NCBI RefSeq assembly: GCF_003721515.1
Contig: NZ_RJJD01000003.1
Span: 62,001 to 126,000 of the forward strand
From: Rufibacter latericius
GTDB lineage: Bacteria > Bacteroidota > Bacteroidia > Cytophagales > Hymenobacteraceae
DNA: 64,000 bases
Direction of reading: 5' to 3'
A program made the position numbers and the translations under genes. Of the stretch, positions 2,479 through 59,291 are shown piece after piece. The notes beneath the pieces were generated by a model, which made no database searches, was not told the DNA's origin, and saw only the letters and a list, made by a program, of their open reading frames with translations. Within the stretch, counting starts at the first letter, position 1. Every line of letters begins with the position of its first letter.

Positions 2479-2518
2479 TTCTTTTTTCGGTGTTTTTATC
2501 AAATAAGGCTTTAAACGC
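2479..2518. repeat. 40-bp intergenic dyad repeat, weak copy
   Basis: Degenerate copy of the dispersed dyad: the right side ends AAGGCTTTAAACGC, and the left side has TTTTTTCGGTGTTTTT at the corresponding distance. Called mainly because length and base order match better copies elsewhere in the window. Confidence 0.35.
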
Positions 2519-2653
2519 ACGGTAGGTTATCAGGAGTGATTTAAGGAATATTTTGTCCAAATAATTCAAGTTTTATATCAGGTTCATATTCTCCTAAAGG
2601 TACCCCTATTAGCAAATATTTCATTTATCCAACTCTACTTTCAAAGAATCTAT

Positions 2654-3346
2654 ATGGAAACTCTAATTGAGAAATACAACAATCTCCAAAAGCAAATTCT
2701 AAGCGAGGTTGGTTTAAAGTGGAAGGTAGATGAGGGAAATCCATTATCAAGAGAAGAATTACAAGACTATTACTACCTTGGTAAATATGTAAATTTAGAT
2801 ATTCTTCACAATTCCATCTACCTGATTGACGTGGGTGAATTAGTTAAAAAGAACTTTCTGAAATTTGGGTTGGAAGCACCCTCAAGGCAAGCAGAAGTAG
2901 GTGGGCGTTATTTAAGGCTGTATGGACTTTTAAGTGCCGTTTATCAGCAAAAGTTGGCCGTTGAAAACCTATTGGAGCTTTACAAGATGGAGGAAAAGGA
3001 AAAAATCTCTTCTGGTTTGAATAGCTCTTCTCTTATAAACCTTTGTAACAAACTTGGAGCTCACGCTACTCATTTCAGAAGCAACCTGGCTGGATTTAAA
3101 AATCAGTTTAGGTTTTATGAGTTTTCCAGGCAAGATCTGGAGAATAACAAAATTAAACTACTGGTAAAAAAATACGAGTTTGAGAATTACGATCTTCTAG
3201 AGGACTTAAAACACTTTAACAAAAAAGTAGAATTAACTTTATCATTCATGATTAGTCAAATTCTAAAAAACTCATTTAACAATCAAGGTGAGTACTATAA
3301 ACAATACCTTGGTATTGAGAAGCAAAAGGATAGTATCTCTACATAA
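2654..3346 (+). CDS. AT-rich orphan gene, possible HEPN-like helical protein
   Basis: A 230-residue protein I cannot assign to a family. It looks entirely cytosolic and helical, with no signal peptide or membrane segment, and is rich in Lys, Glu, Leu and Tyr. Residues 85-145 contain a long helix (LRLYGLLSAVYQQKLAVENL) followed by CNKLGAHATHF (131-141). This resembles the second half of HEPN-type domains, where an R-x4-6-H motif is expected; here the position before N-K-L-G-A-H is Cys, not Arg, so ribonuclease activity is doubtful. Codon use is clearly more AT-rich than in the flanking genes, suggesting horizontal origin, but there are no mobile-element marks. No partner antitoxin gene is adjacent. 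The ATG at 2654 is the only plausible start. Confidence 0.7.
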   Translation: METLIEKYNNLQKQILSEVGLKWKVDEGNPLSREELQDYYYLGKYVNLDILHNSIYLIDVGELVKKNFLKFGLEAPSRQAEVGGRYLRLYGLLSAVYQQKLAVENLLELYKMEEKEKISSGLNSSSLINLCNKLGAHATHFRSNLAGFKNQFRFYEFSRQDLENNKIKLLVKKYEFENYDLLEDLKHFNKKVELTLSFMISQILKNSFNNQGEYYKQYLGIEKQKDSIST

Positions 3347-3504
3347 ATCCACTTACTAGTAGCTTCAAAAAAGTTCTCAATTATTACTATTTATTATGCT
3401 TAGTCTTAACCATGCTCCTCTTCTCTTATGAACACTCTTATGAACATTAACTGAAGCAGGAACAATTTAGGAATAACGGCTCCAAGCCACCTAAATTTAT
3501 TAAT

Positions 3505-3544
3505 CTATTTTGAGCCTTATTTTCAGATTTTAGGCCTAAAACAG
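3505..3544. repeat. 40-bp intergenic dyad repeat
   Basis: Arms CTATTTTGAGCCTTATTTT and ATTTTAGGCCTAAAACAG pair imperfectly. The copy ends 3 bp before the stop codon of the histidine kinase, read on the minus strand. Confidence 0.6.
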
Positions 3545-3547
3545 TAA

Positions 3548-4915
3548 TTAGTAGGCTACAGGAAATATAAGCCTTACGGTGGTTCCTTTCTGTAAAGAAG
3601 AGTCGATTTGAATGGAGCCGCTATGCAGCCGCAAAATCTTTTCGGTCATGGCCAAGCCGATTCCCGTTCCGGTGCGGGTGCGGGCGTTTTGGGCCCGGTA
3701 AAACGGCTCCAAAACTCTGCTCAGTTCTTGTTCTGGAATACCTATTCCCTTGTCCTGGACCTGCACCATTACCTGCTGCTCCTGTAAAATAAGAGTAACA
3801 ATCACCTCTTTGTGGTCTGAGAACTTGGAGGCATTTTCCAGCACGTTCTTCAAGGCAATCTGCAACAGGTTCCGGTTTCCCCAAACCGTTATTAAATCAG
3901 GATTATCGGGCAAAGCCGATAAGTCCAGTTGTATCTGGTTCTGGGGTAGCAACTGATTCAAATTTGCCTTCACCTCCAGCAAAACTTCATCTAGGCGTAC
4001 TAGTTCTTGCCGAACGGCTTGCTCATCAAACCCCGTCTGGGCCAGCAAAATTAAGTCAGAGGTAAGCTTTTCCAGCCGCTCTGTTTCTTTCTGCAGGGTT
4101 TCCAGTGATTGTTTGTATTCCTTAGGTGAACGGTCTTTCAGTAACGTCACTTCCAACTCTCCCCTGATGGCAGTCAAGGGGTTGCGGAGTTCATGGGAGG
4201 CATTCGCGATAAAGCTTTTCTGCATGTAAAAGGAAGTCTCCAGGCGATCCAGCATCTGATTGAAGGTTTGCACCAGATTTCCTATCTCGTCACGGTTCTC
4301 CCGCTCCGGTACCCGCAAATGAAGGTTGGAGGCCCTGATCTTGTTCACTTCCTGTACTATAGACACGATGGGCTGCAAGACCTTTCTAGCAAAGAAATGG
4401 CCCGCAACCACCATGACCAGGATGCCAATCAGAACACTGGTGAGCAGTATTTCCTGCAGGTTTCGGAGCTTGCTTGTTCCGGTTACATCCACCGCGGAGA
4501 CAATGATATAGAAGTTGCCTTGGTTGTCCTCATACCATAGCCCCACCCCCTGTTTGTTTCCCTGCCAAAACTCGGTTTTTTTGTTTTTATCTATTTCGTC
4601 AAATACGCGGCCAGGAACTGAAAGCCTCCGGGCTTCCGGCGTCACTTGCGGGGTTCGGGCGCGGTTATAGATGGTGAGCGTTTCCTCAGACAGGCTCTGA
4701 AGGTATTTTCGCTGCACCTTCTTCATACTAGCGACACTGAGCTCGTCCCGCTCAAGGTACATTTGCGCCGAGATGACGCCTCGGTCCATCAATCGCTGGA
4801 AGAACTGACGCCGGGTATATTGCTCCGCGAAAAAGTAAATGATGATGCCCATGAAGATGAGCACCGCCGTGGTAAGCCCGGAAAAAATGAGGGTGAGTTG
4901 ATTCCGGAAATTCAC
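3548..4915 (-). CDS. Sensor histidine kinase (CusS-like architecture)
   Basis: A 455-residue inner-membrane sensor: TM1 about residues 8-29, a ~125-residue periplasmic domain, TM2 about 154-174, HAMP about 175-228, HisKA with phospho-accepting His241 in NASHELRNPLTAI, then an HATPase_c domain with N box LKNVLENASKFS and G boxes DKGIGIP and GTGIGLAM. It autophosphorylates and passes phosphate to its partner regulator. Its start overlaps the regulator stop by 4 bp (ATGA), so the two are translationally coupled. The HAMP-HisKA layout and OmpR-type partner match CusRS/CzcRS metal-stress pairs, and a metal RND pump lies 1.2 kb away, but the pump is on the other strand. A metal signal is therefore inference only. 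Confidence 0.93.
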   Translation of the reverse strand: MNFRNQLTLIFSGLTTAVLIFMGIIIYFFAEQYTRRQFFQRLMDRGVISAQMYLERDELSVASMKKVQRKYLQSLSEETLTIYNRARTPQVTPEARRLSVPGRVFDEIDKNKKTEFWQGNKQGVGLWYEDNQGNFYIIVSAVDVTGTSKLRNLQEILLTSVLIGILVMVVAGHFFARKVLQPIVSIVQEVNKIRASNLHLRVPERENRDEIGNLVQTFNQMLDRLETSFYMQKSFIANASHELRNPLTAIRGELEVTLLKDRSPKEYKQSLETLQKETERLEKLTSDLILLAQTGFDEQAVRQELVRLDEVLLEVKANLNQLLPQNQIQLDLSALPDNPDLITVWGNRNLLQIALKNVLENASKFSDHKEVIVTLILQEQQVMVQVQDKGIGIPEQELSRVLEPFYRAQNARTRTGTGIGLAMTEKILRLHSGSIQIDSSLQKGTTVRLIFPVAY

Positions 4916-5595
4916 GCGTCCTCCGGTTTCTTAAGGATGTACCCCATGCCCACCACCGTATGAATTAATTTAGTGGGGAATTCTTTGTCAATCTTGTTGC
5001 GGAGGTAATTTACGTATACATCCACCACATTGGAGCCCAAATCAAAATTCAGGTCCCACACGTTTTCCAGCAGATCAATCCTGGACAATACTTTCCCTTG
5101 CCGCTTCATGAAATACTCCAGCAAGGCAAATTCGCGGGCAGTAAGGTTAATCAATTTTCCGTCTCGGGTGACCTCTTTGGTATCCAGGTTCAGTTGCAGA
5201 TCACCGACCTGCAATAGATTGCTGGAGGAAGAGGATTCTCCCCGTCGGGCCAAAGCCCTTACCCGCGCTACCAATTCTTTAAATTTAAAAGGCTTAGTCA
5301 AATAATCATCGGCCCCGGCTTCTAATCCGTCTACAATGTCGTCAGTTGCTCCCAAGGCGGTCAGCAACAGCATGGGGGTTTTGATTTGCTCTTGCCGCAG
5401 TTGTCGGCAAAGGTCCAGCCCGCTCAGGTGAGGCATGATGATGTCCAGCACAATGACCTGGTACTCGTTCTGCAGGGCCAACCGTTTACCGGTAAGTCCA
5501 TCATAGGCCACTTCCACTTCAAACGTCTGTTCCTGAAGACCTCTTTTAATAAATGCCGCCACGTTAGGCTCATCTTCAATGACCAGTATTCTCAT
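4912..5595 (-). CDS. OmpR/PhoB-family response regulator
   Basis: A 227-residue two-domain regulator. The N-terminal receiver has acidic residues E7/D8, phospho-acceptor Asp51 in VIVLDIIMPHLSG and the conserved Lys in DYLTKPF. The C-terminal winged helix (about 125-222) contains LTAREFALLEYFMKRQGKVL and the usual VVDVYVNYLRNKID recognition region. It is the first gene of the pair and overlaps the kinase by 4 bp. Its target promoter cannot be identified from the window. Confidence 0.94.
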   Translation of the reverse strand: MRILVIEDEPNVAAFIKRGLQEQTFEVEVAYDGLTGKRLALQNEYQVIVLDIIMPHLSGLDLCRQLRQEQIKTPMLLLTALGATDDIVDGLEAGADDYLTKPFKFKELVARVRALARRGESSSSSNLLQVGDLQLNLDTKEVTRDGKLINLTAREFALLEYFMKRQGKVLSRIDLLENVWDLNFDLGSNVVDVYVNYLRNKIDKEFPTKLIHTVVGMGYILKKPEDA

Positions 5596-5656
5596 AGATT
5601 AATGCTTGCCTGTTTGAACTGCTAAAACAAAAGTAAACTTAAAATGCCCTCGTCCT

Positions 5657-5696
5657 TTGCTTTATGGCTATTTTCTGAAAAATGGGCTGTAAACAG
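5657..5696. repeat. 40-bp intergenic dyad repeat in divergent promoter region
   Basis: Reads from TTGCTTTATGGC through TATTTTCTGAAAAA to GGGCTGTAAACAG. Moderately degenerate. One of few copies upstream of genes; it lies 61 bp before the response-regulator start. Confidence 0.45.
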
Positions 5697-5838
5697 CATT
5701 CTTATTTTCTTTTTCTGTAGAAGCGAAAAGAATATTCTTCCATTTATGGGAAATTAGAAGGAAGACTGGTAAATTCAATGCCAACGTTGGCTTAACCATA
5801 GGCCAATTTCAAACCAGACTTTCAATCTATCTTCCCTC

Positions 5839-7815
5839 ATGAATCTACACCAGAAAACAAAAATCTCGCTGCTGGGGCTGCTTCTCATGGCCTCCCTCCC
5901 TTCCTTAAGCCAAGTGCGCCTGCCCAAACTGGTCAGCGACGGCATGGTGCTGCAGCGCGACAAAGAAATAAAACTGTGGGGCTGGGCCGGTAAGAACGAA
6001 GCGATTTCAGGCAGTTTTAACCAAAAGGACTTTAAAACGAAAGCAGACGCGGAAGGTAACTGGCAGGTGACTTTGCCCGCCCAGAAAGCCGGTGGCCCTT
6101 ATACCATGACCCTGCGGGCAAGCAACACCATTACCCTGAACGATATTCTGGTGGGCGACTTATGGGTGTGCTCAGGCCAATCCAACATGGAAACACCTAT
6201 GAGCCGGGTTGCCCCTTTGTACAAAGAGGAGATCGCCACAGCGGCTAACTCACAGATCCGGTATTTCGAGGTTCCCAAAAACCCTGACTACACCGGTCCC
6301 CGTCAAGACCTGGAAAAAGGCAGCTGGCAAACCGTGACCCCCAAGACCATCCACGGTTTCTCTGCGTTGGCCTATTTCTTTGCCAAAGAGCTGCAGGAGA
6401 AGTACAAGGTTCCCATTGGGTTGGTCAATGCCAGCCTGGGAGGCTCTCCTGCCGAAGCCTGGATCAGCGAAGAGTCCATTAAAGCGTTCCCTACCCACTA
6501 CCAGGAGGCCCAACGCTTCAAAGACAAGGAGCTTATCGCCCAGATTGAGAAAACAAACAGCGAAATGAACCGGGCCTGGTACACCCAGCTCCGGCAGAAC
6601 GACGAGGGCTTTAAGCAGAAAGATCGTCCCTGGACCAGCCCCGACCTGCCTACCGCTGATTGGAGCACCATGAAAATACCCGGCTATTGGGCAGACCAGC
6701 CGCTGGGTCCGATGAATGGCGTAGTTTGGTTCAGAAAAGACATCCAGGTGCCAGCGGCCATGGTAGGTAAACCCGCGTACCTGCTGCTGGGAACTATTGT
6801 GGATGCAGACTCTACGTTTATTAACGGCGTGTTTGTGGGCACCACCGGGTACCAATATCCGCCCAGAAGGTATGACGTACCGGCCACGGTTCTGAAAGAA
6901 GGAAAGAATACATTAGTCGTGCGTGTCATCAGTAACGGTGGCCGGGGTGGTTTTGTGGAAGACAAGCCGTATTCAATTGCCGCCGGCGGCACCACCATCG
7001 ACCTGAAGGGAGAATGGAAATACAAATTGGGTGCCCGCATGGAGCCCATGGGCAGCCAAGTCAATGTTCGGATGAAGCCTACTGGCCTGTTCAATGCCAT
7101 GATCGCTCCACTGCGGAATTACCAAATTAAAGGCGTGATCTGGTACCAAGGCGAGTCTAACGCGGGCCGGCCCGAAGAATACCGCACCTTGTTCCCCACG
7201 CTTATCAAAGACTGGAGAAACTTCTGGAACCAAGGGAATTTTCCTTTTGTGTTTGTGCAGCTCCCCAACTTCATGAAAGCCCAACCGCAACCCAGTGAAA
7301 GTGGCTGGGCGATGACCCGCGAAGCGCAGGCCGGTGCCCTGGCCCTGCCCAACACCGCGATGGCCGTCGCCATTGACCTGGGTGAATGGAACGACATCCA
7401 CCCATTGAACAAGAAAGATGTGGCCCATCGGGTGGCGCTGGCGGTGCAACCACTGGCATACGGTGCCAAAAACCTGGTCTCCTCGGGCCCCACGTTCAAA
7501 TCCATGCGGAAGGATGGCAACAAGATCATCTTGTCTTTCACCAATACCGGCAGTGGCTTGGTGGCCAAAGGCGGAGGAGAGCTGAAGTATTTTGCGGTGG
7601 CTGGCGCAGACAAGAAATTCAAATGGGCCAAAGCGCAGATCAAAGGAAACCAAGTGATCGTCTGGAGTGACGAGATCGCCTCGCCCGAGGCGGTGCGCTA
7701 CGCCTGGGCAGACAACCCCGAGGGCGCTAACCTCTACAACAAAGAAGATTTGCCCGCCGCCCCTTTCAGAACCGACAGCCCCGCACCTGTAACCAAAGCA
7801 GAAGGAATTAAATAA
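5839..7815 (+). CDS. Secreted sialate O-acetylesterase (SASA family)
   Basis: A 658-residue exported esterase with a signal peptide (residues 1-24, cleavage near SLSQ|VRLPK). The SASA/SGNH-like core has nucleophile Ser115 in CSGQSNM, a second block WYQGESNAG near 437, and the Asp-His pair in NDIHPLNKKDVAHR near 518. A beta-sandwich of glycoside-hydrolase-2-like type (about 265-375) is inserted between these blocks, as in many Bacteroidota members. The family removes acetyl esters from sialic acids or from plant polysaccharides, so the true substrate is open. No sialidase or xylanase gene is adjacent; the gene stands alone and ends at a strong bidirectional hairpin. Confidence 0.9.
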   Translation: MNLHQKTKISLLGLLLMASLPSLSQVRLPKLVSDGMVLQRDKEIKLWGWAGKNEAISGSFNQKDFKTKADAEGNWQVTLPAQKAGGPYTMTLRASNTITLNDILVGDLWVCSGQSNMETPMSRVAPLYKEEIATAANSQIRYFEVPKNPDYTGPRQDLEKGSWQTVTPKTIHGFSALAYFFAKELQEKYKVPIGLVNASLGGSPAEAWISEESIKAFPTHYQEAQRFKDKELIAQIEKTNSEMNRAWYTQLRQNDEGFKQKDRPWTSPDLPTADWSTMKIPGYWADQPLGPMNGVVWFRKDIQVPAAMVGKPAYLLLGTIVDADSTFINGVFVGTTGYQYPPRRYDVPATVLKEGKNTLVVRVISNGGRGGFVEDKPYSIAAGGTTIDLKGEWKYKLGARMEPMGSQVNVRMKPTGLFNAMIAPLRNYQIKGVIWYQGESNAGRPEEYRTLFPTLIKDWRNFWNQGNFPFVFVQLPNFMKAQPQPSESGWAMTREAQAGALALPNTAMAVAIDLGEWNDIHPLNKKDVAHRVALAVQPLAYGAKNLVSSGPTFKSMRKDGNKIILSFTNTGSGLVAKGGGELKYFAVAGADKKFKWAKAQIKGNQVIVWSDEIASPEAVRYAWADNPEGANLYNKEDLPAAPFRTDSPAPVTKAEGIK

Positions 7816-7832
7816 AACTTCCTGGTGGACTT

Positions 7833-9085: not shown

Positions 9086-9124
9086 CCGTTTAGAGGGTGT
9101 TTTCTAAAAACGGGCTCTTAAAGG
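9086..9124. repeat. 39-bp intergenic dyad repeat
   Basis: CCGTTTAGAGGGTGTTTTC on the left and AAAAACGGGCTCTTAAAGG on the right. It sits in the divergent promoter region, 48 bp before the SRPBCC gene. Confidence 0.5.
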
Positions 9125-10702: not shown

Positions 10703-10742
10703 CTGCTTTAAGTTTCTTTTCCAGAAAACCACCTGAAAACGC
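10703..10742. repeat. 40-bp intergenic dyad repeat
   Basis: CTGCTTTAAGTTTCTTTTC on the left, GAAAACCACCTGAAAACGC on the right. Imperfect arms. Lies 39 bp after the VOC stop codon and 25 bp before the next gene. Confidence 0.45.
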
Positions 10743-11327: not shown

Positions 11328-11384
11328 TAGAGCCGTTTAGCACCTGATTTTTGTAAAACAGGCGTTAAACGGCTCTACTTTTTT
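11328..11384 (+). terminator. Terminator hairpin with a 40-bp dyad core
   Basis: The 40-bp core 11333-11372 (CCGTTT...AAACGG, inner CCTG and CAGG) is extended by the flanking pair TAGAG/CTCTA and followed by CTTTTTT at 11378-11384. A clear intrinsic terminator for the SRPBCC gene. Confidence 0.8.
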
Positions 11385-11414: not shown

Positions 11415-11464
11415 GCCCTGTGTTTAGGGTCTGTTTTCAGGAAAACAGACCCTAAACACAGGGC
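11415..11464. repeat. Perfect 24-bp inverted repeat with 40-bp dyad core
   Basis: Arms 11415-11438 and 11441-11464 are perfect complements around the 2-nt centre AG. The core 11420-11459 carries GTGTTTAGGG and CTGTTTTC/GAAAACAG. It is the best-preserved copy of the repeat family and sits 22 bp beyond the stop of the convergent barrel-protein gene. Confidence 0.85.
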
Positions 11465-12180: not shown

Positions 12181-12220
12181 CCGTTTTACGGGCGTTTTTC
12201 AAGAAAGGACCTTGAAACAG
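12181..12220. repeat. 40-bp intergenic dyad repeat
   Basis: Reads from CCGTTTTACGGGCGTTTTTC to AAGAAAGGACCTTGAAACAG; arms are imperfect but length and order match the family. Confidence 0.45.
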
Positions 12221-13839: not shown

Positions 13840-13879
13840 TTGTTTTAAGGGTTACTTTTTGCAAATCAGGCTAAAAATG
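13840..13879. repeat. 40-bp intergenic dyad repeat, weak copy
   Basis: TTGTTTTAAGGGTTACTTTTT on one side and AAATCAGGCTAAAAATG on the other; arms heavily decayed. Confidence 0.35.
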
Positions 13880-13949
13880 GGTAGACTTATCACAGACTAT
13901 CCACAGGCTTTTTCCGGTTGGGAAAAGCGAAATGAACCTTACCCTCTTT

Positions 13950-14804: not shown

Positions 14805-14844
14805 ATGTTTAAGGGCTGTTTTACTGAAAGAAGGCCTTAAACAT
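14805..14844. repeat. 40-bp intergenic dyad repeat
   Basis: ATGTTTAAGG and CCTTAAACAT form a perfect outer arm pair with GCTGTTTT inside. It lies 49 bp beyond the amylase stop codon. Confidence 0.7.
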
Positions 14845-14893: not shown

Positions 14894-17716
14894 TTACTGC
14901 ACTACCACTTGAATGGTGTTGGCGGAAGTACCCGTGATAAGTTTGCAGAAGTACATTCCGGGAGCCAGGCGCTTTCCGGTGCCGGTAGTGAGAGTCTGGG
15001 TAATTGAGTGCGCTCCGGCGGCTTGTTTCCCCACTGACCGATTGATCACCAAACGACCCAATTGGTCAAAAACCTGCAAAGACACCTCGGCAGCGGAAAC
15101 CAGTTGGTAGCGCACCGTCACTTCTCCTGTTCTGGAAGGATTCGGGAACGCCACTACTCCTTTGGCCAGGGCATCTTTCTCTCCCTTGGAGCTCAACAAA
15201 ATGCTGGCGTTAGATAGGCGCTTGGTGGTGTACACGCGGTATTCACCGGGCTGTAGCGTAATGGCTTGGTTTACATTGGTCACGTTCAGGGCCTCGCCAG
15301 TTACGAAATCATACCAGGTGCCCGTGTACTGAAACTTGGGGTCTATGTTGCCAGGGGTCACTCCGAAGTTCCCCAAAATAGCCACGTTCATGTCCGGATC
15401 CTGGATGTGGATGGTTTTGAGGGTTCCGGCTAAGTTCAAGGTATAGTTCCCGGATTCAAAGGCGGGTTGGTTTATCTTCAGCTTGATGAGCGCGGCGTAC
15501 ACGTTGTAGAGTTTCTTGCGCTCGGCGTCTTGGTAATAATTCCACAGGATGGGTTTGTTACCGGTTCGGCCGTTCTCATTGATAGAGACATCGTAACCTA
15601 ACTCCCCAAACTGCCACACCATTTTAGGTCCGGGAATGGTGAAGAAGAAAGCCGCCGCCAATTGCATGCGCTGCAAAGCGGTAGCAAGCGTCTTGACACT
15701 ATAGGTTCCGGAGGTGACGCCGTTACGCAGGGCTTCCACCATCTGGCGCTCCTCATCGTGGCTTTCCATGTACCCTACCACGTGCGGGCTGGTCCAGCCG
15801 CGTTGTTTGTAGGAGATCCAGTTGAAGTTGGAGTTGGAGGTATTCCCCAGAATGGCCTCTTTGTAGTTTCCGTGCAGGTTGCCCCACAGCATCATGCCGT
15901 GGTTAGCCAAAACCGTTTCCTCGCTGTTTTCGGCAAAATGCTCCAGAATCACATAGGCGTTGTTGTCTACCGACCAGATGTGGTCCGCCATGCGCTTGAG
16001 CAAGTCAATCCGGGTTTGATCAAACCTTCCCCAGGCATCCACGCTCCCTAACGTTTGCTTTTGGGTAAAGCCTTTCGATAAATCGAAGCGATAGCCGTCT
16101 ACCTTGTATTCCTTCAGCCAAAATTCGGTGACCCGATCTACAAAGTATTTGGTAGCGGCACTCTCATGGTTGAAGTCATGGCCCACGTTGTATTCATGCG
16201 TAGGGTCTGGGTTAAACCAGGGATTCTCCGGGGTAGTTTTACCAGTGGCGCTGTTATAGTACAGCTGCACCATGGGTGATTGGCCGAATGAATGGTTCAA
16301 GGCTATGTCCAGGATTACCGCCATTCCGCGGGCGTGAGCCTCGTCAATGAACCGCTTCAGCATTTCTTTAGGACCGTAATACTTGTCGGGCGCAAAGTAA
16401 TAGACCGAGTTGTAGCCCCAGCTCAGGTTCCCTTCAAATTCATGAATTGGCATCAGTTCGATGGCATTCACGCCCAAGCGCTGCAGGTAATTAAGGGTAT
16501 CGGTGAGGGTTTTGTAATCGTGCTTGGCGATGAAATCACGCACCAGCAGTTCATAGATCACCAAATCTGTTTTCTTTGGCCTGGAATAGGAGGAGGCGGT
16601 CCAGTTAAAAGCCGATTGATTTGTCTGAAACACGGAAACCATGCCCGTTGCTTTTCCTACTGGGTACGCCTTCAGGTTGGGGTACGTCTCTGCAGTAAGG
16701 TACTGGTCTTCGTTAGGATCCAGGGTTTTCTGGGTATAAGGATCGCCTACCCGCAGGGTCTCATCTACCAAGTATTGATAAGCGTATTCCTGTCCTGCGG
16801 TAAGGTTGTCAATCTGTACCCAATACCGCGTTCCATCGGGCGTTTGGTTCATGGGCGTGGCACCCACGGTCCAATTATTGAAGTCTCCTACCACGTACAC
16901 ATTCTGCTTGAGGGGGGCATAAAAGTTCAACAACACACTGGTGGCATTGAGGTACGTCACCCCATCTTTGGCGTTTGCCGGAAGCGCCTGTACCATAGCC
17001 CCCTGCCGAACCACGAACGTGAATGAGTCTACCGCCGTCACGTTGCCGCTCTCGGCCACAATCTTCACCTTGTTGGAACCTGGGGTGGTCGCGATAACCT
17101 GGGCCTCCAGGGTTGTGGCCGAGGCTTCCTCTTTCACTTTCGCCCCGTTCACAAAGAGGCTGAGCTTGGAACTCACCGAGGAATTCCCCTTTACCTGAAT
17201 GCTTTGGTCCTTGTTCACGAAAAGACCATTTTGGCCTACAACCGGTTGGGCGAAGGAAACACTGACCGCGCCCGATGCATAGATAGGTACTTTGATGTCC
17301 TTGCCCCCGGTGTCTTTTCCTTCTTTGCTTCCGTTGCCATTTCTGAAAACGAACATCAAAGCTTTGATCTCCTCATTTGCCGGAACGTTATAAAACGTCC
17401 TTGGGGTGAGGGTGATCTGGTAGCGGTTATTCCCCAAAGATGTCATCAAGGCCGCCGGTAAGTTGGTGGTCCAAGGGGCTTTCACATATTTCCAGTCCGC
17501 CTCCGAGGTACTGAGGTTGGTTAAGACACCTGTATGAGCGTAAATTGGTTCAGACACGTTCGCCAGTCCACCGGTACCTTTGGAAGCATCGAAAGTAATG
17601 GTTACAGGTTCATTATGGACCGGGAAAGCGGGAGACCAGGTTACCACCTGCGCTTGTACTCCTTGCACCAGCAGCAACACCAGTAACAAGCCAAGCAAAC
17701 GGAACGTAGTTTTCAT
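14894..17716 (-). CDS. T9SS-secreted alpha-amylase family protein (GH13)
   Basis: A 940-residue extracellular enzyme. Signal peptide 1-22 (LLVQGVQA|Q). Residues ~25-150 form an N-terminal beta domain seen on Bacteroidota amylases, ~150-240 an Ig-like domain, and ~255-350 a CBM48-like domain with YVVGDFNNW. The GH13 barrel (~383-760) has nucleophile Asp545 in DGYRFDLSKGF, acid/base Glu592 in ILEHFAE and the His653-Asp654 pair in MESHDEE. The last ~80 residues (VVAFPNPSRTGEVTVRYQL ... GMYFCKLITG) are a type A T9SS sorting domain, so it is exported by the type IX system and released or anchored at the surface. It probably degrades external starch or glycogen; it is divergent from glgB. Confidence 0.94.
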   Translation of the reverse strand: MKTTFRLLGLLLVLLLVQGVQAQVVTWSPAFPVHNEPVTITFDASKGTGGLANVSEPIYAHTGVLTNLSTSEADWKYVKAPWTTNLPAALMTSLGNNRYQITLTPRTFYNVPANEEIKALMFVFRNGNGSKEGKDTGGKDIKVPIYASGAVSVSFAQPVVGQNGLFVNKDQSIQVKGNSSVSSKLSLFVNGAKVKEEASATTLEAQVIATTPGSNKVKIVAESGNVTAVDSFTFVVRQGAMVQALPANAKDGVTYLNATSVLLNFYAPLKQNVYVVGDFNNWTVGATPMNQTPDGTRYWVQIDNLTAGQEYAYQYLVDETLRVGDPYTQKTLDPNEDQYLTAETYPNLKAYPVGKATGMVSVFQTNQSAFNWTASSYSRPKKTDLVIYELLVRDFIAKHDYKTLTDTLNYLQRLGVNAIELMPIHEFEGNLSWGYNSVYYFAPDKYYGPKEMLKRFIDEAHARGMAVILDIALNHSFGQSPMVQLYYNSATGKTTPENPWFNPDPTHEYNVGHDFNHESAATKYFVDRVTEFWLKEYKVDGYRFDLSKGFTQKQTLGSVDAWGRFDQTRIDLLKRMADHIWSVDNNAYVILEHFAENSEETVLANHGMMLWGNLHGNYKEAILGNTSNSNFNWISYKQRGWTSPHVVGYMESHDEERQMVEALRNGVTSGTYSVKTLATALQRMQLAAAFFFTIPGPKMVWQFGELGYDVSINENGRTGNKPILWNYYQDAERKKLYNVYAALIKLKINQPAFESGNYTLNLAGTLKTIHIQDPDMNVAILGNFGVTPGNIDPKFQYTGTWYDFVTGEALNVTNVNQAITLQPGEYRVYTTKRLSNASILLSSKGEKDALAKGVVAFPNPSRTGEVTVRYQLVSAAEVSLQVFDQLGRLVINRSVGKQAAGAHSITQTLTTGTGKRLAPGMYFCKLITGTSANTIQVVVQ

Positions 17717-19959: not shown

Positions 19960-19998
19960 TCGTTTAGAGGCTGTTTTCAGAAAACGGCTCCTAAACGA
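19960..19998. repeat. 39-bp intergenic dyad repeat
   Basis: TCGTTTAGAGGCTGTTTTC and GAAAACGGCTCCTAAACGA, with a further G/C pair outside. It starts 28 bp after the glgB stop. Confidence 0.75.
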
Positions 19999-20192: not shown

Positions 20193-20235
20193 CTGCCGTT
20201 TTGAAGCTATTTTTTTTAAAACGGCTCTAAAACAG
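20193..20235. repeat. Dyad repeat abutting the GT4 stop codon
   Basis: CTGCCGTTTTGAAGC on the left and GGCTCTAAAACAG on the right, with an 8-T run inside. Ends 4 bp before the GT4 stop, read on the minus strand. Slightly longer than other copies (43 bp). Confidence 0.55.
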
Positions 20236-21601: not shown

Positions 21602-22166
21602 TGTAACTAAATTCATCGGACTTCGTAGAGGCACTCCTTGTAAAGATAAGTAATTCACCCCCCAGTACAAGGTTTTCAGAACAGATTTTTCACATTGTTC
21701 ATCCCCTCAAAGCGAAAATTTGCAAACATTCAGTAATAATGCGGTTTTTTATGTGAATTTATACGGTAAAGCCACTTATCTTCACACTCTCTTATGGTTA
21801 TCATTTTTTATTTGGATAATCCTATTTAAATCTACTCTAATGATCACTAGTTTGGGAGTAAACTAGAAGAATACTTCAGAAGTACCATTATGTAGTACGA
21901 AGAAAATGACCAATATTCCATTTATCTCCGTGGCAGTAGGGAAGATCTCAAAGTAGATACTAACTCTAACAATATTCCAGAATTTAAATTTAAAACCAAA
22001 GGCAAATTCATAGGAGCTTTTCCTAACCTGTTTAAAAACGGAACACAAAACGCTCGTCTCGACCGAATAAAAGAGAGTGCCTGTTTAAGCGGTGTTTTTG
22101 GGAAAACACTACTTAAACAGGCACTCTCTTTTATTCGCCGCTTGGTTAAAGCAGTAGTTAACGTTC
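21602..22166. other. 565-bp AT-rich spacer
   Basis: Lies upstream of the GT4 gene and downstream of the GT3 gene, both on the minus strand. Apart from the 22064-22137 hairpin I see only AT-rich sequence that should contain the GT4 promoter. Confidence 0.55.
22064..22137. terminator. 35-bp hairpin with 40-bp dyad core in its loop position
   Basis: The outer arms CGAATAAAAGAGAGTGC (22064-22080) and their exact complement (22121-22137) enclose the dyad core 22081-22120 (CTGTTTAAG...CTTAAACAG). In all, 33 of 35 arm positions pair. It lies 30 bp after the GT3 stop codon and should terminate that gene. Confidence 0.85.
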
Positions 22167-23963: not shown

Positions 23964-24398
23964 GGGAGGGTCATTTTAGGCCTATTTTACTCAAATTAGG
24001 GTAAAAGGGATATAGAAAAAATAAACTATTTACATTTTTTCAATGGTTTCAGAACATGAATAACAGCTAAAACACCTAACCCTTTCACCCTCAGACCAGA
24101 AGCCTTCTCCATGTATCCCAAAGCTAAACCTTTTTTACAGATTTCATACCTCTCCCCTGCTTCGTACAGATATTTACCCTTCTTTTTCCTTCGGGCGTTA
24201 ATAGAAATGCATTTTCAGAGCAGAATCCAAAGGATTGTAATTCAACACGAAGCCCCTGCAGCTTCCTTCTGCCAAGGCGTTCCTTCCAACTTATTTTTCA
24301 ACCGAAACAAAACAAAAAGGTAGATTTGGTCTATAAGTCAATTCCCGCCGGATGCCCGGTTATTTGTTTTTGACTGAACCACTGTACAAAAGAAAACT
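23964..24398. other. 435-bp divergent promoter region
   Basis: Separates the minus-strand GT3 gene and the plus-strand thioesterase. It carries one weak dyad copy (23971-24010). A 70-codon open frame inside (24111-24323) has no protein-like features. Promoters for both genes should be here, but no confident -7/-33 pair was found. Confidence 0.5.
23971..24010. repeat. 40-bp intergenic dyad repeat, weak copy
   Basis: TCATTTTAGGCCTATTTTAC and AAATTAGGGTAAAAGGGA. It begins 7 bp upstream of the GT3 start codon, an unusual position for the family. Confidence 0.35.
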
Positions 24399-24836: not shown

Positions 24837-24876
24837 CTGTTTAAGGGCTGTTTTCTTTAAAGCAGCCCTTAAACAG
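24837..24876. repeat. 40-bp intergenic dyad repeat, near-consensus copy
   Basis: Arms CTGTTTAAGGGCTGTTTT and AAAGCAGCCCTTAAACAG pair at 17 of 18 positions around CTTT. It starts 6 bp after the thioesterase stop and probably terminates it. Confidence 0.85.
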
Positions 24877-26534: not shown

Positions 26535-26574
26535 TTGTTTTGGCATTGTTTTCCTGAAAACAGCCCTAAAATAA
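26535..26574. repeat. 40-bp intergenic dyad repeat
   Basis: TTGTTTTGGCATTGTTTTC and GAAAACAGCCCTAAAA around CT. It begins 3 bp after the M28 stop codon and overlaps the next hairpin by 8 bp. Confidence 0.65.
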
Positions 26575-28334: not shown

Positions 28335-28388
28335 AGCGCCTCTGATTTCAGGCCCTTTTGGTAAAAATAACCCGAAATCAGAAGCGCT
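28335..28388. terminator. Hairpin with 40-bp dyad core
   Basis: Core 28342-28381 (CTGATTTC...GAAATCAG) lies inside an outer AGCGCCT/AGAAGCGCT-type pair. It is 33 bp after the GH5-like stop codon on the minus strand. Confidence 0.7.
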
Positions 28389-34725: not shown

Positions 34726-34765
34726 GCGTTTATAGCCTGTTTTTTGTAAAAGTGGCTAAAAGCGC
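34726..34765. repeat. 40-bp intergenic dyad repeat
   Basis: GCGTTTATAGCC and GGCTAAAAGCGC enclose TGTTTTTTGTAAAAGT. It lies 35 bp after the DUF4960-like stop codon (minus strand), inside the 282-bp gap of the fructan locus. Confidence 0.7.
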
Positions 34766-38276: not shown

Positions 38277-38316
38277 CTGTTTCTGACCTACTTTTTAGAA
38301 AACAAGCCAGAAACAG
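38277..38316. repeat. 40-bp intergenic dyad repeat
   Basis: CTGTTTCTG and CAGAAACAG are perfect arms with CTTTTTAGAAAACAAG inside. It lies 26 bp after the SusD stop codon, between susD and the GH32 gene. Confidence 0.75.
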
Positions 38317-45637: not shown

Positions 45638-45677
45638 CCGGTTTAGGCCCTGTTTTTTGAAAAATGTGTAAAAACGA
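45638..45677. repeat. 40-bp intergenic dyad repeat, weak copy
   Basis: CCGGTTTAGGCCCTGTTTT and GAAAAATGTGTAAAAACG; the right arm is decayed. Confidence 0.4.
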
Positions 45678-45915: not shown

Positions 45916-45974
45916 AAAGCCATTCTGTTTAAAGGCCGTTTTTATGAAAACAGTCCTTAAACAGAATGGCTTTT
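45916..45974 (-). terminator. Terminator of the hybrid regulator with 40-bp dyad core
   Basis: Core 45925-45964 (CTGTTTAAAGG...CCTTAAACAG) is extended by AAGCCATT/AATGGCTTTT. It is 21 bp after the stop codon on the minus strand and A-rich beyond, giving a U tract in the transcript. Confidence 0.8.
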
Positions 45975-49032: not shown

Positions 49033-49071
49033 CTGTTTTGGAGCTAGTTTCTGAAAATGGGTCAGAAACAG
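49033..49071. repeat. 39-bp intergenic dyad repeat
   Basis: CTGTTTTGGAGC and GGTCAGAAACAG enclose TAGTTTCTGAAAATG. One of the few copies far from any protein-gene stop. Confidence 0.6.
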
Positions 49072-51807: not shown

Positions 51808-51847
51808 CTGTTTTGCGCCTGTTTTTTCGAAAGTTAGCCAAAAACAG
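51808..51847. repeat. 40-bp intergenic dyad repeat
   Basis: CTGTTTTGCGCC and GTTAGCCAAAAACAG around TGTTTTTTCGAAA. It lies 12 bp after the TPR stop codon. Confidence 0.7.
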
Positions 51848-52017: not shown

Positions 52018-52057
52018 CTGTTTTAAGCCGCTTTTCTGGAATTTACCGTTTAAATAG
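52018..52057. repeat. 40-bp intergenic dyad repeat
   Basis: CTGTTTTAAGCCGCTTTTC and GGAATTTACCGTTTAAATAG. Partly decayed; 162 bp upstream of the thiolase. Confidence 0.5.
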
Positions 52058-54801: not shown

Positions 54802-54830
54802 TTTGCTTGTTGATTGTTAGTTGCTGCTTT

Positions 54831-54870
54831 TTGTTTTGGGCCAGAATTCTGGAAAATAGGCCCAAAGCAG
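54831..54870. repeat. 40-bp intergenic dyad repeat
   Basis: TTGTTTTGGGCC and GGCCCAAAGCAG with AGAATTCTGGAAAATA inside. It lies 29 bp after the YwqK-like stop and shares its last 3 bp with the inverted repeat that follows. Confidence 0.65.
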
Positions 54871-55046
54871 ATGTAGCGGCGTTACCCTGTAAAGCCATGG
54901 TACCACGCAGCCGCAAAGGAAGCCATAGATAGAACCGCCTTTGCAACAGGAACCTTCAAAACCTTCTTTAAAAGAACCGCTTTACCCAAGAGGCAGGGCT
55001 GCGTTCCAAAGTACCACGCCATTACAGGGTAACGCCGCTGCATCTG
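54868..55046. mobile_element. Long inverted-repeat element, MITE-like
   Basis: The left arm begins CAGATGTAGCGGCGTTACC and the right arm ends with its complement GGTAACGCCGCTGCATCTG. 23 of the first 24 bp pair, then a further block (GGTACCACGCAGCC versus GTGGTAC...ACGCAGCC) pairs with gaps, so arms extend ~45-55 bp around a ~80-bp unique centre. No transposase is encoded. It is bracketed by two 40-bp dyads, each sharing 3 bp with an arm. A structured RNA is the alternative reading. Confidence 0.55.
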
Positions 55047-55083
55047 TTTCAGGCCTGATTTTCAGAAAACAACCATAAAACCA
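55044..55083. repeat. 40-bp intergenic dyad repeat, right side decayed
   Basis: CTGTTTCAGGCCTGATTTTC then GAAAACAACCATAAAACC. The left half is close to consensus; the right arm is not fully complementary. Confidence 0.5.
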
Positions 55084-55171
55084 CTCCTTTTCCCCACATC
55101 AACCCAAGCGAAAATTTCTCCTATTCCATTTTCCGCCGTACTTTAGTCCCCTAAACAAGACTTTACAGACT

Positions 55172-56209
55172 ATGACGGACGCCCTGAACACCGCCCCACT
55201 CCGCACGGATTGGACCATGGATGAAATTCGCGCCATCTATTATAAGCCCGTGTTGGAACTCATCGTGGAGGCCTCACAGGTACACAAAAAATTTCAGGCA
55301 ACAGGTGAAGTGCAAGTCTGCACGCTCCTTTCGGTGAAAACCGGCGGCTGTCCCGAGGATTGCGCTTATTGCCCGCAGGCGGCCCGTTACCACACCGGCG
55401 TACAGGCGCATAAACTTCTCAGCAACGAAGTGGTGCTGGATGCGGCCCGCAAAGCCAAAGAAGGCGGTTCTACCCGTTTCTGCATGGGTGCTGCCTGGCG
55501 CGAAGTACGTGACAACCGCGATTTCGACCGCGTGTTGGAGATGGTGGAAGGCGTGAATGAGATGGGTCTGGAGGTTTGCTGTACCCTGGGTATGGTGAAC
55601 GAGTACCAAGCCGAGCGCCTGAAAGAAGCCGGCCTTTACGCCTACAACCACAACCTGGACACTTCAGAGGAGAACTACAGCAACATCATCACCACCCGTA
55701 CTTACGGAGACCGTTTAGGCACCATTGAGAACGTGCGCAAAGCCGGAATCTCTGTGTGTAGCGGTGGCATCATTGGCTTAGGCGAGACTGATGATGACCG
55801 TATTGCCATGCTCCACGTGCTGGCCAACCTGCCACAGCACCCAGAAAGTGTGCCGGTAAACGCGTTGGTGCCTGTTGAAGGTACGCCTTTGGCCGAGCAA
55901 CCGCGCGTGAGCGTGTGGGAAATGGTGCGCATGATTGCCACCGCCCGTATTCTTATGCCGAAGACGATGGTGCGTTTATCAGCAGGACGGCAGGAAATGC
56001 CCGTGAGTGAGCAGGCTCTTTGCTTTTTGGCAGGCGCCAACTCCATCTTCTCTGGTGACAAACTCCTGACCACGCCTAACCCGGGCTTCGCCGATGACAA
56101 AGCCATGTTTGAGTTGCTGGGTTTAACGCCCCGAAAATCTTTCAAGGCCGAAACAGCCTGCGGCGGAACCGTTGATGCTCCAGCCGAAGCCGTAGTAGCT
56201 GCTGAATAA
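55172..56209 (+). CDS. bioB: Biotin synthase
   Basis: A 345-residue radical SAM enzyme that inserts sulfur into dethiobiotin. The cluster motif CPEDCAYC places Cys60, Cys64 and Cys67 on the SAM [4Fe-4S] cluster. The second-cluster ligands are also present (the Cys in [12 protein letters not shown] and VCCTLGM). [17 protein letters not shown] and [14 protein letters not shown] are family blocks. It is the first gene of the biotin operon, 9 bp before bioF. Confidence 0.97.
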
Positions 56210-56218
56210 CCTCTTGCC

Positions 56219-57382
56219 ATGAAGGTTCCGGACCGTTTATTGCGTCAACTGGAGAGCAGAGCCCATCAAGGCACCCTGCGCCGATTGACTTCGCCGGCAC
56301 CCAACCTGGTCGATTTCAGTTCCAACGATTACCTAGGCTTAGCAGCATCCACCGTTTTGGCCCGTCGCATTGCAGAAGAGATTGGGGAATTTCCGGCCCA
56401 TGGGTCAACGGGCTCGCGGCTTTTAAGCGGGAATACTCAAAATGCCCAAAAACTGGAGGAAGAGCTCGCTCTTTTTCACGGGGCGGAGGCGGCGCTGCTG
56501 TTCAACTCGGGCTATGCAGCCAATTGCGGCTTCTTTTCGGCGGTTCCGCAGCGCGGCGATACCATCTTCTATGATGAGGCCAGCCACGCTTCCATGAAAG
56601 AGGGAATCAGGCTCAGTTTTGCCCAGGGTTTTCCGTTCCGGCACAATGATCTGGAGGACCTTCGAAGCAAACTGAAACGAGCGCAGGGGAACGTGTACGT
56701 GGCGGTAGAGTCGCTGTATTCTATGGATGGGGATTTCGCCCCGCTACAGGATCTGGTGGCTTTTTGCCAGGAACAGGGCTTGTACCTGGTGGTGGATGAG
56801 GCGCATTCCAACGGCCTGTACGGCGAAAAAGGCGAAGGCTTGGTTTCAGCGTTGAAGTTGGAGAAGCAGGTGTTCGCCCGCGTCATGACCTTCGGGAAAG
56901 CCATTGGGTGTCACGGGGCAGCAGTTGTGGGTCCGAAGGTTTTGCAACAGTTCCTGTTGAATTTCAGCCGGCCTTTCATCTACACGACCGCTTTGCCTTT
57001 GTCTTCCTTGGCCGCAATTCGGCAAGCATACGCCCTCCTTCCTGGTCTTACGTCCGAAAGACAACACGTACAGGAACTGTCTTCGCTTTACCAAACCCTT
57101 ACCGGCGGTTTACCCTTTTCGGGGCCGATTTCTCCAAAACGGCCGCTAAACGGAAGCCCCATCCAGGCTTGGGAATTGGCAAATCCGGTAGCGCTTCGGC
57201 AATTGGCCCAACATCTTCAAACGGCGGGCTTTGATGTGCGGCCGGTCTTCAGCCCTACCGTTCCGACGGGCAAAGAGCGCCTCAGATTGGTGCTACATGC
57301 CTACAACACACCTGCGCAAGTACAAGAATTATGCAATCTGCTTTACCAGCACACCCCAAAAGATATTTCGTTACCGGCATAG
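56219..57382 (+). CDS. bioF: 8-amino-7-oxononanoate synthase
   Basis: A 387-residue PLP enzyme joining pimeloyl thioester with alanine. PLP Lys227 lies in MTFGKAIGCHG; Asp193 and His196 are in VVDEAHSNGLYG; glycine-rich GSTGSRLLSGN follows the N-terminal SSNDYLGLA. Length is normal. Its last 52 bp overlap bioD in another frame, an unusually long overlap. Confidence 0.94.
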   Translation: MKVPDRLLRQLESRAHQGTLRRLTSPAPNLVDFSSNDYLGLAASTVLARRIAEEIGEFPAHGSTGSRLLSGNTQNAQKLEEELALFHGAEAALLFNSGYAANCGFFSAVPQRGDTIFYDEASHASMKEGIRLSFAQGFPFRHNDLEDLRSKLKRAQGNVYVAVESLYSMDGDFAPLQDLVAFCQEQGLYLVVDEAHSNGLYGEKGEGLVSALKLEKQVFARVMTFGKAIGCHGAAVVGPKVLQQFLLNFSRPFIYTTALPLSSLAAIRQAYALLPGLTSERQHVQELSSLYQTLTGGLPFSGPISPKRPLNGSPIQAWELANPVALRQLAQHLQTAGFDVRPVFSPTVPTGKERLRLVLHAYNTPAQVQELCNLLYQHTPKDISLPA

Positions 57383-57984
57383 GCACCGACGTGGGCAAGA
57401 CTATTGCCTCGGCGGTCCTGACCGAAGCCCTGCAGGCGGATTACTGGAAACCCGTGCAGGCCGGCAACCTGGAAGACTCAGACACGCACACCGTAAAAAG
57501 TCTTATCACTAACACCCGAACGGTTTTCCACCCGGAGGCTTACCGGCTGAAGATGCCTGCTTCCCCGCACACTGCCGCTGCCGCAGAAGGTATCCGTTTA
57601 TCCCTGGAGAACATGCACTTGCCTTCCACTACAAACCACCTGATTGTGGAAGGGGCCGGCGGCGTAATGGTTCCGCTCAATGACAAGGAACTGGTGCTGG
57701 ATCTCATTCAGAAACTCCAACTAGAGGTAATTCTGGTATCCAGAAACTACCTGGGGAGCATCAACCATACCCTGATGGCCGTGGAAGTACTCCGGAGCAG
57801 AAACCTTTCCATTGCCGGCATCATCTTCAACGGAGAGCCAAATGCTTCCTCGGAGGAGTTTATCTTGAACTATACCCAGTTGCCCGCTTTCCCGCGGCTG
57901 CGGCAGGAAAAAAGCGTTGATAAGAATACGGTTTTACGCTACGCCTCCACCTTTCAGGAAAATTTGATTAGCCATGAACAATAG
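57331..57984 (+). CDS. bioD: Dethiobiotin synthase
   Basis: A 217-residue ATP-dependent carboxylase-ligase forming the ureido ring. P-loop TGIGTDVGKT (15-24), KPVQAG (about 38-43) and the Mg-binding EGAGGVMVPL. The ATG at 57331 is the only start that keeps the P-loop strand YFVTGIG, which forces the 52-bp overlap with bioF. It overlaps bioA by 11 bp. Confidence 0.94.
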   Translation: MQSALPAHPKRYFVTGIGTDVGKTIASAVLTEALQADYWKPVQAGNLEDSDTHTVKSLITNTRTVFHPEAYRLKMPASPHTAAAAEGIRLSLENMHLPSTTNHLIVEGAGGVMVPLNDKELVLDLIQKLQLEVILVSRNYLGSINHTLMAVEVLRSRNLSIAGIIFNGEPNASSEEFILNYTQLPAFPRLRQEKSVDKNTVLRYASTFQENLISHEQ

Positions 57985-59260
57985 CCTATCCGCCCGCGAC
58001 CAACAGGTCAACTGGCACCCGTATACCCAAATGCAAACCGCTCCTCCTCCCATTGGAATAGTGCGGGCAGAGGGCGCAGTTCTTTACGCCGAGGACGGAA
58101 CAGAATACATTGATGCGGTTTCTTCGTGGTGGGTGAACATCCATGGGCATGCCCATCCGCACATCGCGGAGCGGGTTAGTCAGCAGTTGCGTACGCTGGA
58201 GCACGTCATTTTCGCAGGGTTTACCCACGCTCCCGCCGTGGAACTCTCCGAGCGGCTCCTGAAGCTTCTTCCGCAGAACCAAGCCAAGGTTTTTTACTCA
58301 GACAACGGTTCAACCGCCGTGGAAGTGGCCCTTAAAATGGCCCTTCAGTTCTGGCACAACCAGGGCATAAACAAAACCAAGATCATCGCGCTGGAAGGTA
58401 GCTACCACGGCGACACCTTCGGGGCGATGTCAGTGAGTGAGCGTTCTGTTTTTACCCGGCCCTTCCAGCAGTACCTGTTTGATGTGGAGTTTTTGCCCGT
58501 TCCAGTACCCGGAAAAGAAGAACAAACCTTGGCTCAATTAGAAACGCTGCTCCAACAAGAAGACATTGCCGCTTTCATCTTTGAGCCTTTGGTACTGGGA
58601 ACCACCGGCATGGTCATGTATACCCCCGAAGTTTTAAGCAAGATGATGGCCCTGTGCCGCTCCCGGGGAGTTCTGGTGATTGCCGATGAGGTGATGACAG
58701 GCTTTGGCAGAACAGGCAAACGCTTCGCCTGTGACTATGTCAACGAAGTGCCGGATCTGATGTGCTTTTCCAAAGGAATCACCGGTGGTACCATGGCCTT
58801 AGGAGTAACAACTTGCTCTAAAACCATCTTTGACTCTTTCCTAAGCGATGACAAAACCAAAGCGCTCTTCCACGGACATTCCTATACAGCCAATCCGGTA
58901 GCCTGCGCCGCTTCATTGGCCAGTCTTGATTTGGTGGAAGATGAATCGTTTTTGGAAAACCTGGACAGAATCAGCGCCTCGCATTCAGCTTTTGCTCAGA
59001 GCTTGGTAGGTTTGCCCGGCATAAAGTCCTGCCGCCAAACAGGAACCATTCTGGCCATAGAATTTGAGGTAGGCGAAACAACTTATTTCCATTCGCTTCG
59101 GGACCAACTTTATAATCTGGCACTGGAGAACGGCGTGCTGTTGCGTCCTTTGGGTAACATTGTTTATGTGTTGCCGCCTTACTGCATCACCCAAGCCCAA
59201 CTTGAAAAAGTGTACGACGTCCTTGAACAGATGCGTCAATTTGTAGTACAGGCATTTTAG
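57974..59260 (+). CDS. bioA: Adenosylmethionine-8-amino-7-oxononanoate aminotransferase
   Basis: A 428-residue class III PLP aminotransferase making 7,8-diaminopelargonate. PLP Lys267 in CFSKGITGG, Asp238 in VIADEVMTGFGRTG, and the BioA-specific start WHPYTQM and SSWWVNIHGHAHP. The last codons and the stop lie inside a copy of the 40-bp dyad repeat (59252-59291), so its final residues A-F are encoded by that repeat. Confidence 0.96.
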   Translation: MNNSLSARDQQVNWHPYTQMQTAPPPIGIVRAEGAVLYAEDGTEYIDAVSSWWVNIHGHAHPHIAERVSQQLRTLEHVIFAGFTHAPAVELSERLLKLLPQNQAKVFYSDNGSTAVEVALKMALQFWHNQGINKTKIIALEGSYHGDTFGAMSVSERSVFTRPFQQYLFDVEFLPVPVPGKEEQTLAQLETLLQQEDIAAFIFEPLVLGTTGMVMYTPEVLSKMMALCRSRGVLVIADEVMTGFGRTGKRFACDYVNEVPDLMCFSKGITGGTMALGVTTCSKTIFDSFLSDDKTKALFHGHSYTANPVACAASLASLDLVEDESFLENLDRISASHSAFAQSLVGLPGIKSCRQTGTILAIEFEVGETTYFHSLRDQLYNLALENGVLLRPLGNIVYVLPPYCITQAQLEKVYDVLEQMRQFVVQAF

Positions 59261-59291
59261 CCTTGTTTTGAGAAAATCACCCAGAAAACAG
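59252..59291. repeat. 40-bp dyad copy spanning the bioA stop codon
   Basis: GCATTTTAGCCTTGTTTT and AAAATCACCCAGAAAACAG flank GAG. The outer arms are weak, but the inner TTGTTTT/AGAAAACAG and the 40-bp spacing match the family. It ends directly before the ketoacyl-synthase ATG. Confidence 0.4.

Follow-up and report, generated by a model that had tools for sequence, protein, structure and literature searches.

Background

A window of 64,000 nucleotides from Rufibacter latericius (contig NZ_RJJD01000003.1, positions 62,001 to 126,000) raises the question of what a dyad of about 40 bp is doing there in some 27 copies. An earlier note on this DNA described the copies as 39-40 bp long and mostly at gene 3' ends, and proposed either a mobile or amplified palindrome or a protein-binding or uptake-like motif doubling as 3' mRNA structure. 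From the observed number, length, position, codon-independent presence in genes, and conservation pattern of the copies, we suggest that the family is probably a DNA-level recognition site: a 40-bp dyad, predicted to be curved, that would serve a putative protein and is kept chromosome-wide in permissive places.

A limited literature search on Rufibacter, Pontibacter, and Bacteroidetes repeats and uptake sequences gave no published account of the dyad family. The search gave nothing on Pontibacter palindromic repeats or Bacteroidetes uptake sequences, the Rufibacter items on palindromes were unrelated by title, and no title among the items on repeats concerned Rufibacter. Below, G000 is the window genome (R. 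latericius), G001 is R. ruber, G005 is a second Rufibacter species, and L-numbers are extracted loci.

Results

In the window, all 27 listed copies were recovered, each at most 5 bp off, and ten more brought the total to 37 matches of at least 14 bits. At 12 bits or more there were 40 matches against a mean of 2.2 in dinucleotide shuffles, with a matrix partly trained on its own matches. The consensus is about CTGTTTTARGSCTGTTTT-N4-AAAACAGSCYTAAAACAG, and the invariant pairs of the dyad are T:A, not G:C.

Elsewhere in the window genome, a two-arm matrix trained on the 27 listed copies only found 222 matches of at least 14 bits in 400 kb (20 other stretches), compared with 2.0 in shuffles within 50-bp blocks. 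Among these matches, 182 are exactly 40 bp long and 25 are 39 bp. The excess over shuffled sequence and the fixed length, on which the earlier note had staked its family, thus both hold outside the window. Scaled to the 5.67 Mb window genome, the count corresponds to about 3,100 copies, or about 2,500 from the 179 matches at 20 bits. For G005 (one contig, 4.82 Mb), a matrix re-estimated on its own matches gave 144 matches in 380 kb against 2 in one shuffle, 140 of them exactly 40 bp. This scales to about 1,800 per genome, and each of the 19 sampled 20-kb stretches round the chromosome had 5-11.

In the window-genome sample, lone half-sites numbered 37 at 14 bits (8.3 in shuffles) and 22 at 16 bits (3.3 in shuffles); G005 had 3 against 0.3. 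They are few beside the 217 full dyads found in the same sequence at 16 bits or more (matrix retrained on sample matches), so the unit is the whole dyad.

The preference for gene 3' ends stands, but not as a rule: copies in divergent gaps and in coding sequence exist. With a simple codon-usage gene caller (278 genes, 79% coding), the 217 matches fell in tandem gaps (105), convergent gaps (40), divergent gaps (19), predicted coding sequence (46), and stretch edges (7); among the 222, 47 lie in predicted genes and 8 at edges. The rest of the 222 can be set against the number of gaps of at least 45 bp: the 36 convergent gaps had 40 matches, the 125 tandem gaps 105, and the 34 divergent gaps 22. 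An element lies downstream of 142 of the 193 window-genome genes with such a gap (114 of 182 in G005), and the median distance from the stop codon in tandem and convergent gaps is 38 nt.

Coding matches of at least 16 bits numbered 34, compared with 1.6 when synonymous codons were permuted within genes (12 vs. 1.2 in G005); the matrix was retrained on sample matches including coding ones, which is a mild bias. Thus, the motif inside genes is not a by-product of protein sequence. Regular spacing was considered as a function and rejected: coding copies do not fill intergenic gaps (median 740 nt to the nearest, null 859). Two low-GC stretches that resembled foreign DNA hold few copies (two in L029, six in L036). 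Since 5.8 kb of L029 aligns to G005, we make no claim of depletion in low-GC stretches.

Individual sites were followed across 16 Rufibacter genomes. The element within bioF (57114..57153, 34.7 bits) has its corresponding place in 16/16 genomes, directly before a conserved SPIQAW-like stretch, and the peptide varies. In the alignment, BioF of 28 other Bacteroidota has 4-5 fewer residues in this loop, and nowhere in these 28 outgroup genes does the motif score more than 2.8 bits. The element 88 bp upstream of bioB (55044..55083, 39.1 bits) ends 86-90 bp before the bioB start in all 16 genomes (the L125 copy is weak, 19 bits). The one across the bioA stop codon (59252..59291, 32.7 bits) is found in 15/16, and the sixteenth is weak (13 bits).

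Between the tetratricopeptide repeat (TPR) protein gene and the thiolase gene, the window has one element 3' of the former (51808..51847, 37.0 bits) and one 5' of the latter (52018..52057, 25.6 bits). One to four elements precede the thiolase gene in 15/16 genomes, the exception being L128, where the contig stops short of the TPR gene. Both elements are at matching places in G003 and G014 (88-89% identical), whose spacer is no longer alignable; the G002 gap is without both, and there the whole gap differs (few sites compared). A 39-bp element within the beta-ketoacyl-synthase (kas) gene (59646..59684, 26.6 bits) has a match of at least 13 bits in 7/16 genomes; this copy arose by substitutions, without insertion.

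Conservation within the element was measured at three orthologous sites. The ten positions with the most information (5, 6, 16-18, and their mirror, all within T/A tracts) are 98-99% conserved, compared with 69-79% for other element positions and 47-58% for ungapped flanks. These values come from 14, 14, and 13 of the 16 genomes, leaving out the window row and rows with a 39- or 44-bp match. Conservation even inside genes suggests that a protein reads the dyad.

With a covariance model, the family was detected in 16/16 Rufibacter genomes and in 1 of 23 relatives outside the genus. A family-wide search at 1e-4 gave matches in 22 of 204 genomes, namely the 16 Rufibacter and 6 of the 188 others, all six from one genus and with two or three matches each when palindrome strands are counted separately. 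An even draw of 395 genomes of the phylum at 1e-5 gave nothing besides the window's own matches. As the candidates scored per genome are capped in all of them, these searches report presence of the family rather than copy number, and the phylum and family searches used stricter filters. Each of the six sister-genus genomes (G022:C14:96308, which is L134, and five more) has one or two good copies, whereas thousands would be expected of an active system. Their copies are possibly transferred Rufibacter DNA.

A pooled 5-mer dyad count over all k-mers proved too insensitive, missing even the Rufibacter family. A per-k-mer dyad scan detects Rufibacter; strong Pontibacter and Hymenobacter signals were discarded as sets of homologous bioB loci, and non-homologous stretches of the sister genus G017 (140 kb) showed no comparable 40-bp dyad. 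The G017 stretches hold zero 40-bp matches of at least 10 bits, and another G017 locus (L135) has one of 27.7 bits; the samples from G018 (23 kb) and G019 (40 kb) are too small for judging presence. In 76 named outgroup loci, matches of at least 14 bits numbered 2 in Pontibacter, 1 in Hymenobacter, and 27 in the rest (666 kb), against 1, 1, and 11 in one shuffle, so that the rest shows a low excess.

Plasmid and phage collections gave no place covering 80% of the 40-mer. One near-perfect element (47 bits) lies between two genes in the IMG/VR contig IMGVR_UViG_2839759663_000002 (L200 1273-1312), whose provirus region has a weak terminase large-subunit match and an endonuclease match. Thus, the motif also occurs outside old chromosomal DNA.

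Curvature was predicted with the Bolshoy wedge model. In three genomes, the elements have a predicted bend of 43-54 degrees, compared with 16.6-17.8 for same-letter shuffles and random 40-mers; the prediction is 43.0 degrees for coding copies and 41.0-42.9 for intergenic ones. When arm spacers of 0-8 were modelled on the consensus, the native 4 gave the maximum bend. Among centres of 0-10, the native 4 gave 59 degrees and the maximum was 63 at 5. This near-optimal tract spacing for predicted curvature may explain why the length is fixed, though 41-42 bp would be equally curved.

The remaining copies in the window, whose coordinates carry no strand, differ in gene context. Convergent gaps hold 3505..3544 (28.1 bits), 11333..11372 (36.9 bits) and 11420..11459 (38.5 bits), both with the stem prolonged by flanks, 14805..14844 (38.0 bits), the 39-bp 19960..19998 (40.3 bits), 20196..20235 (43.3 bits), and 26535..26574 (38.0 bits). 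Divergent gaps hold 5657..5696 (35.9 bits), the 39-bp 9086..9124 (30.6 bits), 12181..12220 (32.7 bits), and 23971..24010 (29.6 bits). The stem is also prolonged by flanks at 28342..28381 (32.0 bits) and 45925..45964 (42.4 bits), 24837..24876 is near-consensus (44.8 bits), and 54831..54870 (34.4 bits) lies 3' of a MORN-protein gene. Further 40-bp elements are at 2479..2518 (27.7 bits), 10703..10742 (31.9 bits), 13841..13880 (29.1 bits), 34726..34765 (35.3 bits), and 38277..38316 (35.5 bits), and further 39-bp elements at 45639..45677 (29.0 bits) and 49033..49071 (35.5 bits).

Nine of the ten matches absent from the earlier list lie in predicted coding sequence. The strong ones are the bioF copy and 6001..6040 (31.9 bits). 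Those at 15913..15952 (40 bp, coding sequence, 23.9 bits) and within an AcrB-type gene (39 bp, 2027..2065, 25.0 bits) are weak, and matches scoring 15-20 bits are possibly chance. The length of 39-40 bp was borne out, except that the supposed 43-bp copy at 20193 is in truth the 40-bp element at 20196-20235; position 45638 shifts slightly, to 45639. By our count, 17 of the 27 copies lie at most 50 nt downstream of a stop codon, near the 16 or so estimated before. An Rfam scan of the window at gathering cut-offs gave three tRNAs and no family match for the 40-bp elements.

A second repeat, GTAGCGGCGTTAC, is GTAG-tagged like repetitive extragenic palindromic (REP) elements and forms an inverted pair, 132-157 bp start to start. 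The pair was found at 7 of 200 loci (L119, L122, L123, L127, L128, L042, and L165, of which L128 and L042 are the same locus), often between 40-bp elements; at 54873-55041, the window itself carries an exact copy and a variant. This repeat may be the target of Rufibacter Y1/RAYT-like transposases. In at least two species (L124, L131), the palindromic word GGGCAACCACAAGGGATTGCCCC or a similar one lies close to the 40-bp elements upstream of bioB.

Discussion

For a DNA-level recognition site, we propose the following mechanism. Four helically phased T/A tracts would make the site intrinsically curved, and a putative Rufibacter protein, probably a symmetric dimer or tetramer, would contact four CTGTTT half-sites on one face of the curve, binding some 1,800-3,000 places per genome. 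The likeliest use would be chromosome-wide DNA organisation or self-DNA recognition. Copies would be kept by purifying selection or biased conversion where they are least harmful, that is, after stops, between genes, and in variable protein loops. Many transcript-end copies would be kept secondarily as hairpins, some of them within true intrinsic terminators.

Several points weigh against this proposal. No binding protein was found: HU/IHF, considered as a candidate, has no genus-specific expansion, with one or two matches per genome both in and outside the genus. The curvature is a model prediction only, and versions of 41-42 bp, predicted to be as curved, are rare, so curvature alone would not fix the length. 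Lone half-sites are few yet enriched, and some may act singly or be decayed dyads. The 47-bit copy sits in a provirus contig. Identical copies in R. ruber, detailed below, show that copying happens, and arm pairing at transcript ends means that hairpins or palindrome-correcting mutation account for part of the signal.

Among the earlier proposals, the protein-binding or uptake-like motif doubling as 3' mRNA structure fits best, given the motif-level conservation, the coding copies without hairpin covariation, the arm pairing at transcript ends, and a placement like that of DNA uptake sequences (DUS). The known type IV pilus route of uptake finds no support. PF00437 (T2SSE, PilB/PilT) was above the cut-off in 0/16 Rufibacter genomes and sub-threshold in 8/16 (19-22 bits); other pilus families were not searched.

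A DNA uptake or self-recognition signal, with natural transformation by a non-pilus outer-membrane route, would be a special case of the binding-site reading. According to two papers (PMC3630211, PMC2397512), the DUS of Neisseriaceae occur in thousands of copies, with lineage-limited dialects, in and between genes, and as inverted pairs at terminators, and the dyad matches them in copy number, limitation to a lineage (here a genus), permissive locations, and terminator use. The units differ, since DUS are 10-12 nt long and work singly, whereas here one 40-bp dyad is the unit (22 lone half-sites beside 217 full dyads at 16 bits) and the pilus ATPase is not above the cut-off. The uptake signal sequence (USS) of Pasteurellaceae is not known to be a dyad. 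According to PMC7811141, its AT-tracts are predicted to be rigid and slightly bent, tracts that the Haemophilus USS favours, and its GCGG core is crucial; our motif shares AT-tracts predicted to be bent, but its invariant part is the T/A tracts.

ComEC is present in 16/16 Rufibacter genomes, but it is not specific to competent bacteria. GC content at third codon positions (GC3), a proxy for acquired DNA, is lower for genes without a downstream element in G005 (p 0.0002), whereas the trend is not significant in the window genome (p 0.18). The provirus contig with its one copy also speaks against a self-recognition signal. Altogether, we regard an uptake signal as unlikely.

It is likewise doubtful that the dyad is primarily a 3'-end RNA hairpin, acting as terminator or mRNA-stabilising stem and sharing its sequence since a protein or RNase reads the RNA. 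The position of the elements after stop codons, described above, agrees with it. Arm pairing exceeds the column-frequency expectation at transcript ends (z 7.0 for convergent and 3.6 for tandem copies in the window genome, 4.1 and 4.8 in G005) and is unclear elsewhere (divergent 0.4, G005 1.6, in small sets of 17 and 14 copies; coding -1.7, G005 1.1). As only transcript-end copies have clear excess pairing, hairpins, or mutation that corrects palindromes, would be restricted to these copies, whereas the motif itself is not. Stronger pairing than in the rest is also seen at flank positions 1-4. Some transcript-end copies double as hairpins and some crown perfect terminator stems. The element at 22081..22120 (31.0 bits) sits within the loop of a perfect, longer inverted repeat that has a T-run, and single copies such as this one have the GC-rich stem and U-tract of an intrinsic terminator.

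The family as a whole does not have them. Of the tandem and convergent copies, only 15-23% are followed by five T in six (the opposite side gives 8-26%), which leaves 77-85% of transcript-end copies without a T-run, and the invariant pairs are T:A. Elements also occur inside genes and in divergent gaps, as counted above. GU wobble preference, considered as evidence for RNA, is absent: on the transcribed strand of tandem copies, G:T mismatches numbered 157 against 164 expected, and A:C 119 against 132.

A selfish or mobile palindrome like REP elements or miniature inverted-repeat transposable elements (MITEs), amplified in the Rufibacter ancestor and now decaying with no host role, is very unlikely. 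The mobile or amplified palindrome of the earlier note does draw on real copying. R. ruber carries 22 identical 40-mers with unrelated flanks (0.07 expected under independent positions), found in 0/15 other Rufibacter genomes. G005 has 63 near-identical pairs (at most 4 differences) against 7 expected, with a null that ignores dependence between neighbouring positions, and the window genome has a slight excess of 3 pairs with at most 6 differences against 0.7 (null maximum 2).

Against mobility, the window genome has no pair with at most 4 differences, there is little decay in length, sites keep their positions across the genus, also amid spacers that no longer align, and the kas copy arose as described above. 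Flanking direct repeats at both feet of the 217 copies numbered four of 3 nt (chance 3.4), two of 4 nt (0.85), and none of at least 5 nt, that is, no target-site duplication of the MITE type. Two R. ruber copies can be compared with another species, and at both places an older element is present in that species (L185:9936 vs. L019:11830, with a 44-nt length difference beside, and L180:5683 vs. L154). In these two cases of 22, R. ruber copying resembles replacement or conversion and not a new insertion.

Y1_Tnp matches at 1e-3 occur in 15/16 Rufibacter genomes, but G006 is without one and yet carries the family. Near full-length matches (91-97 bits, frames of about 150 residues) were seen at G001:C35:72562, G007:C39:219735, and G012:C1:4307271. 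They are IS200-TnpA-like by size and stronger than in other genomes; G001 is R. ruber, the species with the 22 identical 40-mers.

REP elements and bacterial interspersed mosaic elements (BIMEs) are palindromes of 20-40 bp tagged by GTAG or CGTC, mostly 3' of genes and sometimes within them, some families reaching thousands (PMC3733652). The dyad is like them in position and copy number. It differs in its fixed 40 bp, its 18-bp arms against REP stems of 5-13 bp, its presence where Y1_Tnp is unmatched, and its lack of the tag: the consensus ends CTG...CAG, and within 6 nt of the foot of the 217 copies GTAG occurred 12 times (10.2 nearby) and CGTC 3 times (4.6). The REP-like label of the earlier note is therefore dropped as a statement of membership. 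HIP1 of cyanobacteria (PMC4390886) is an 8-mer palindrome over-represented across a lineage, linked to orphan methyltransferases and with its function open; the dyad shares the over-representation across a lineage, but it is a degenerate 40-bp dyad predicted to be curved.

Since the unit and machinery differ from DUS and the REP tag is not enriched, we file the dyad under no named family. In its working, it would most resemble the iterated DNA sites of the DUS or HIP type. The family is not mainly a terminator, nor a decaying mobile palindrome.

Conclusions

We return to the DNA-level recognition site as our preferred reading. A long, length-constrained, and frequent site that is kept in coding sequence across 16 species and absent in bulk from the other searched genera implies a dominant DNA-binding activity of one lineage. 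More tentatively, and at somewhat less than even chances, the dyad may be a genus-specific chromosome code, in which a putative symmetric DNA-binding protein would read the curved dyad at 2,000-3,000 sites and selection for it would shape protein loops such as that of BioF.

If true, a new class of highly iterated chromosomal site, either a nucleoid organiser or a pilus-independent self-DNA recognition signal, would have arisen within one genus. The dyad is a defined bait for finding the putative protein, and Rufibacter offers a natural case for testing how a long motif comes to saturate a genome. The dyad also tells apart two roles that tend to be confused in dispersed palindromes, since the motif is found everywhere at the DNA level and its use as a hairpin only where transcripts end.

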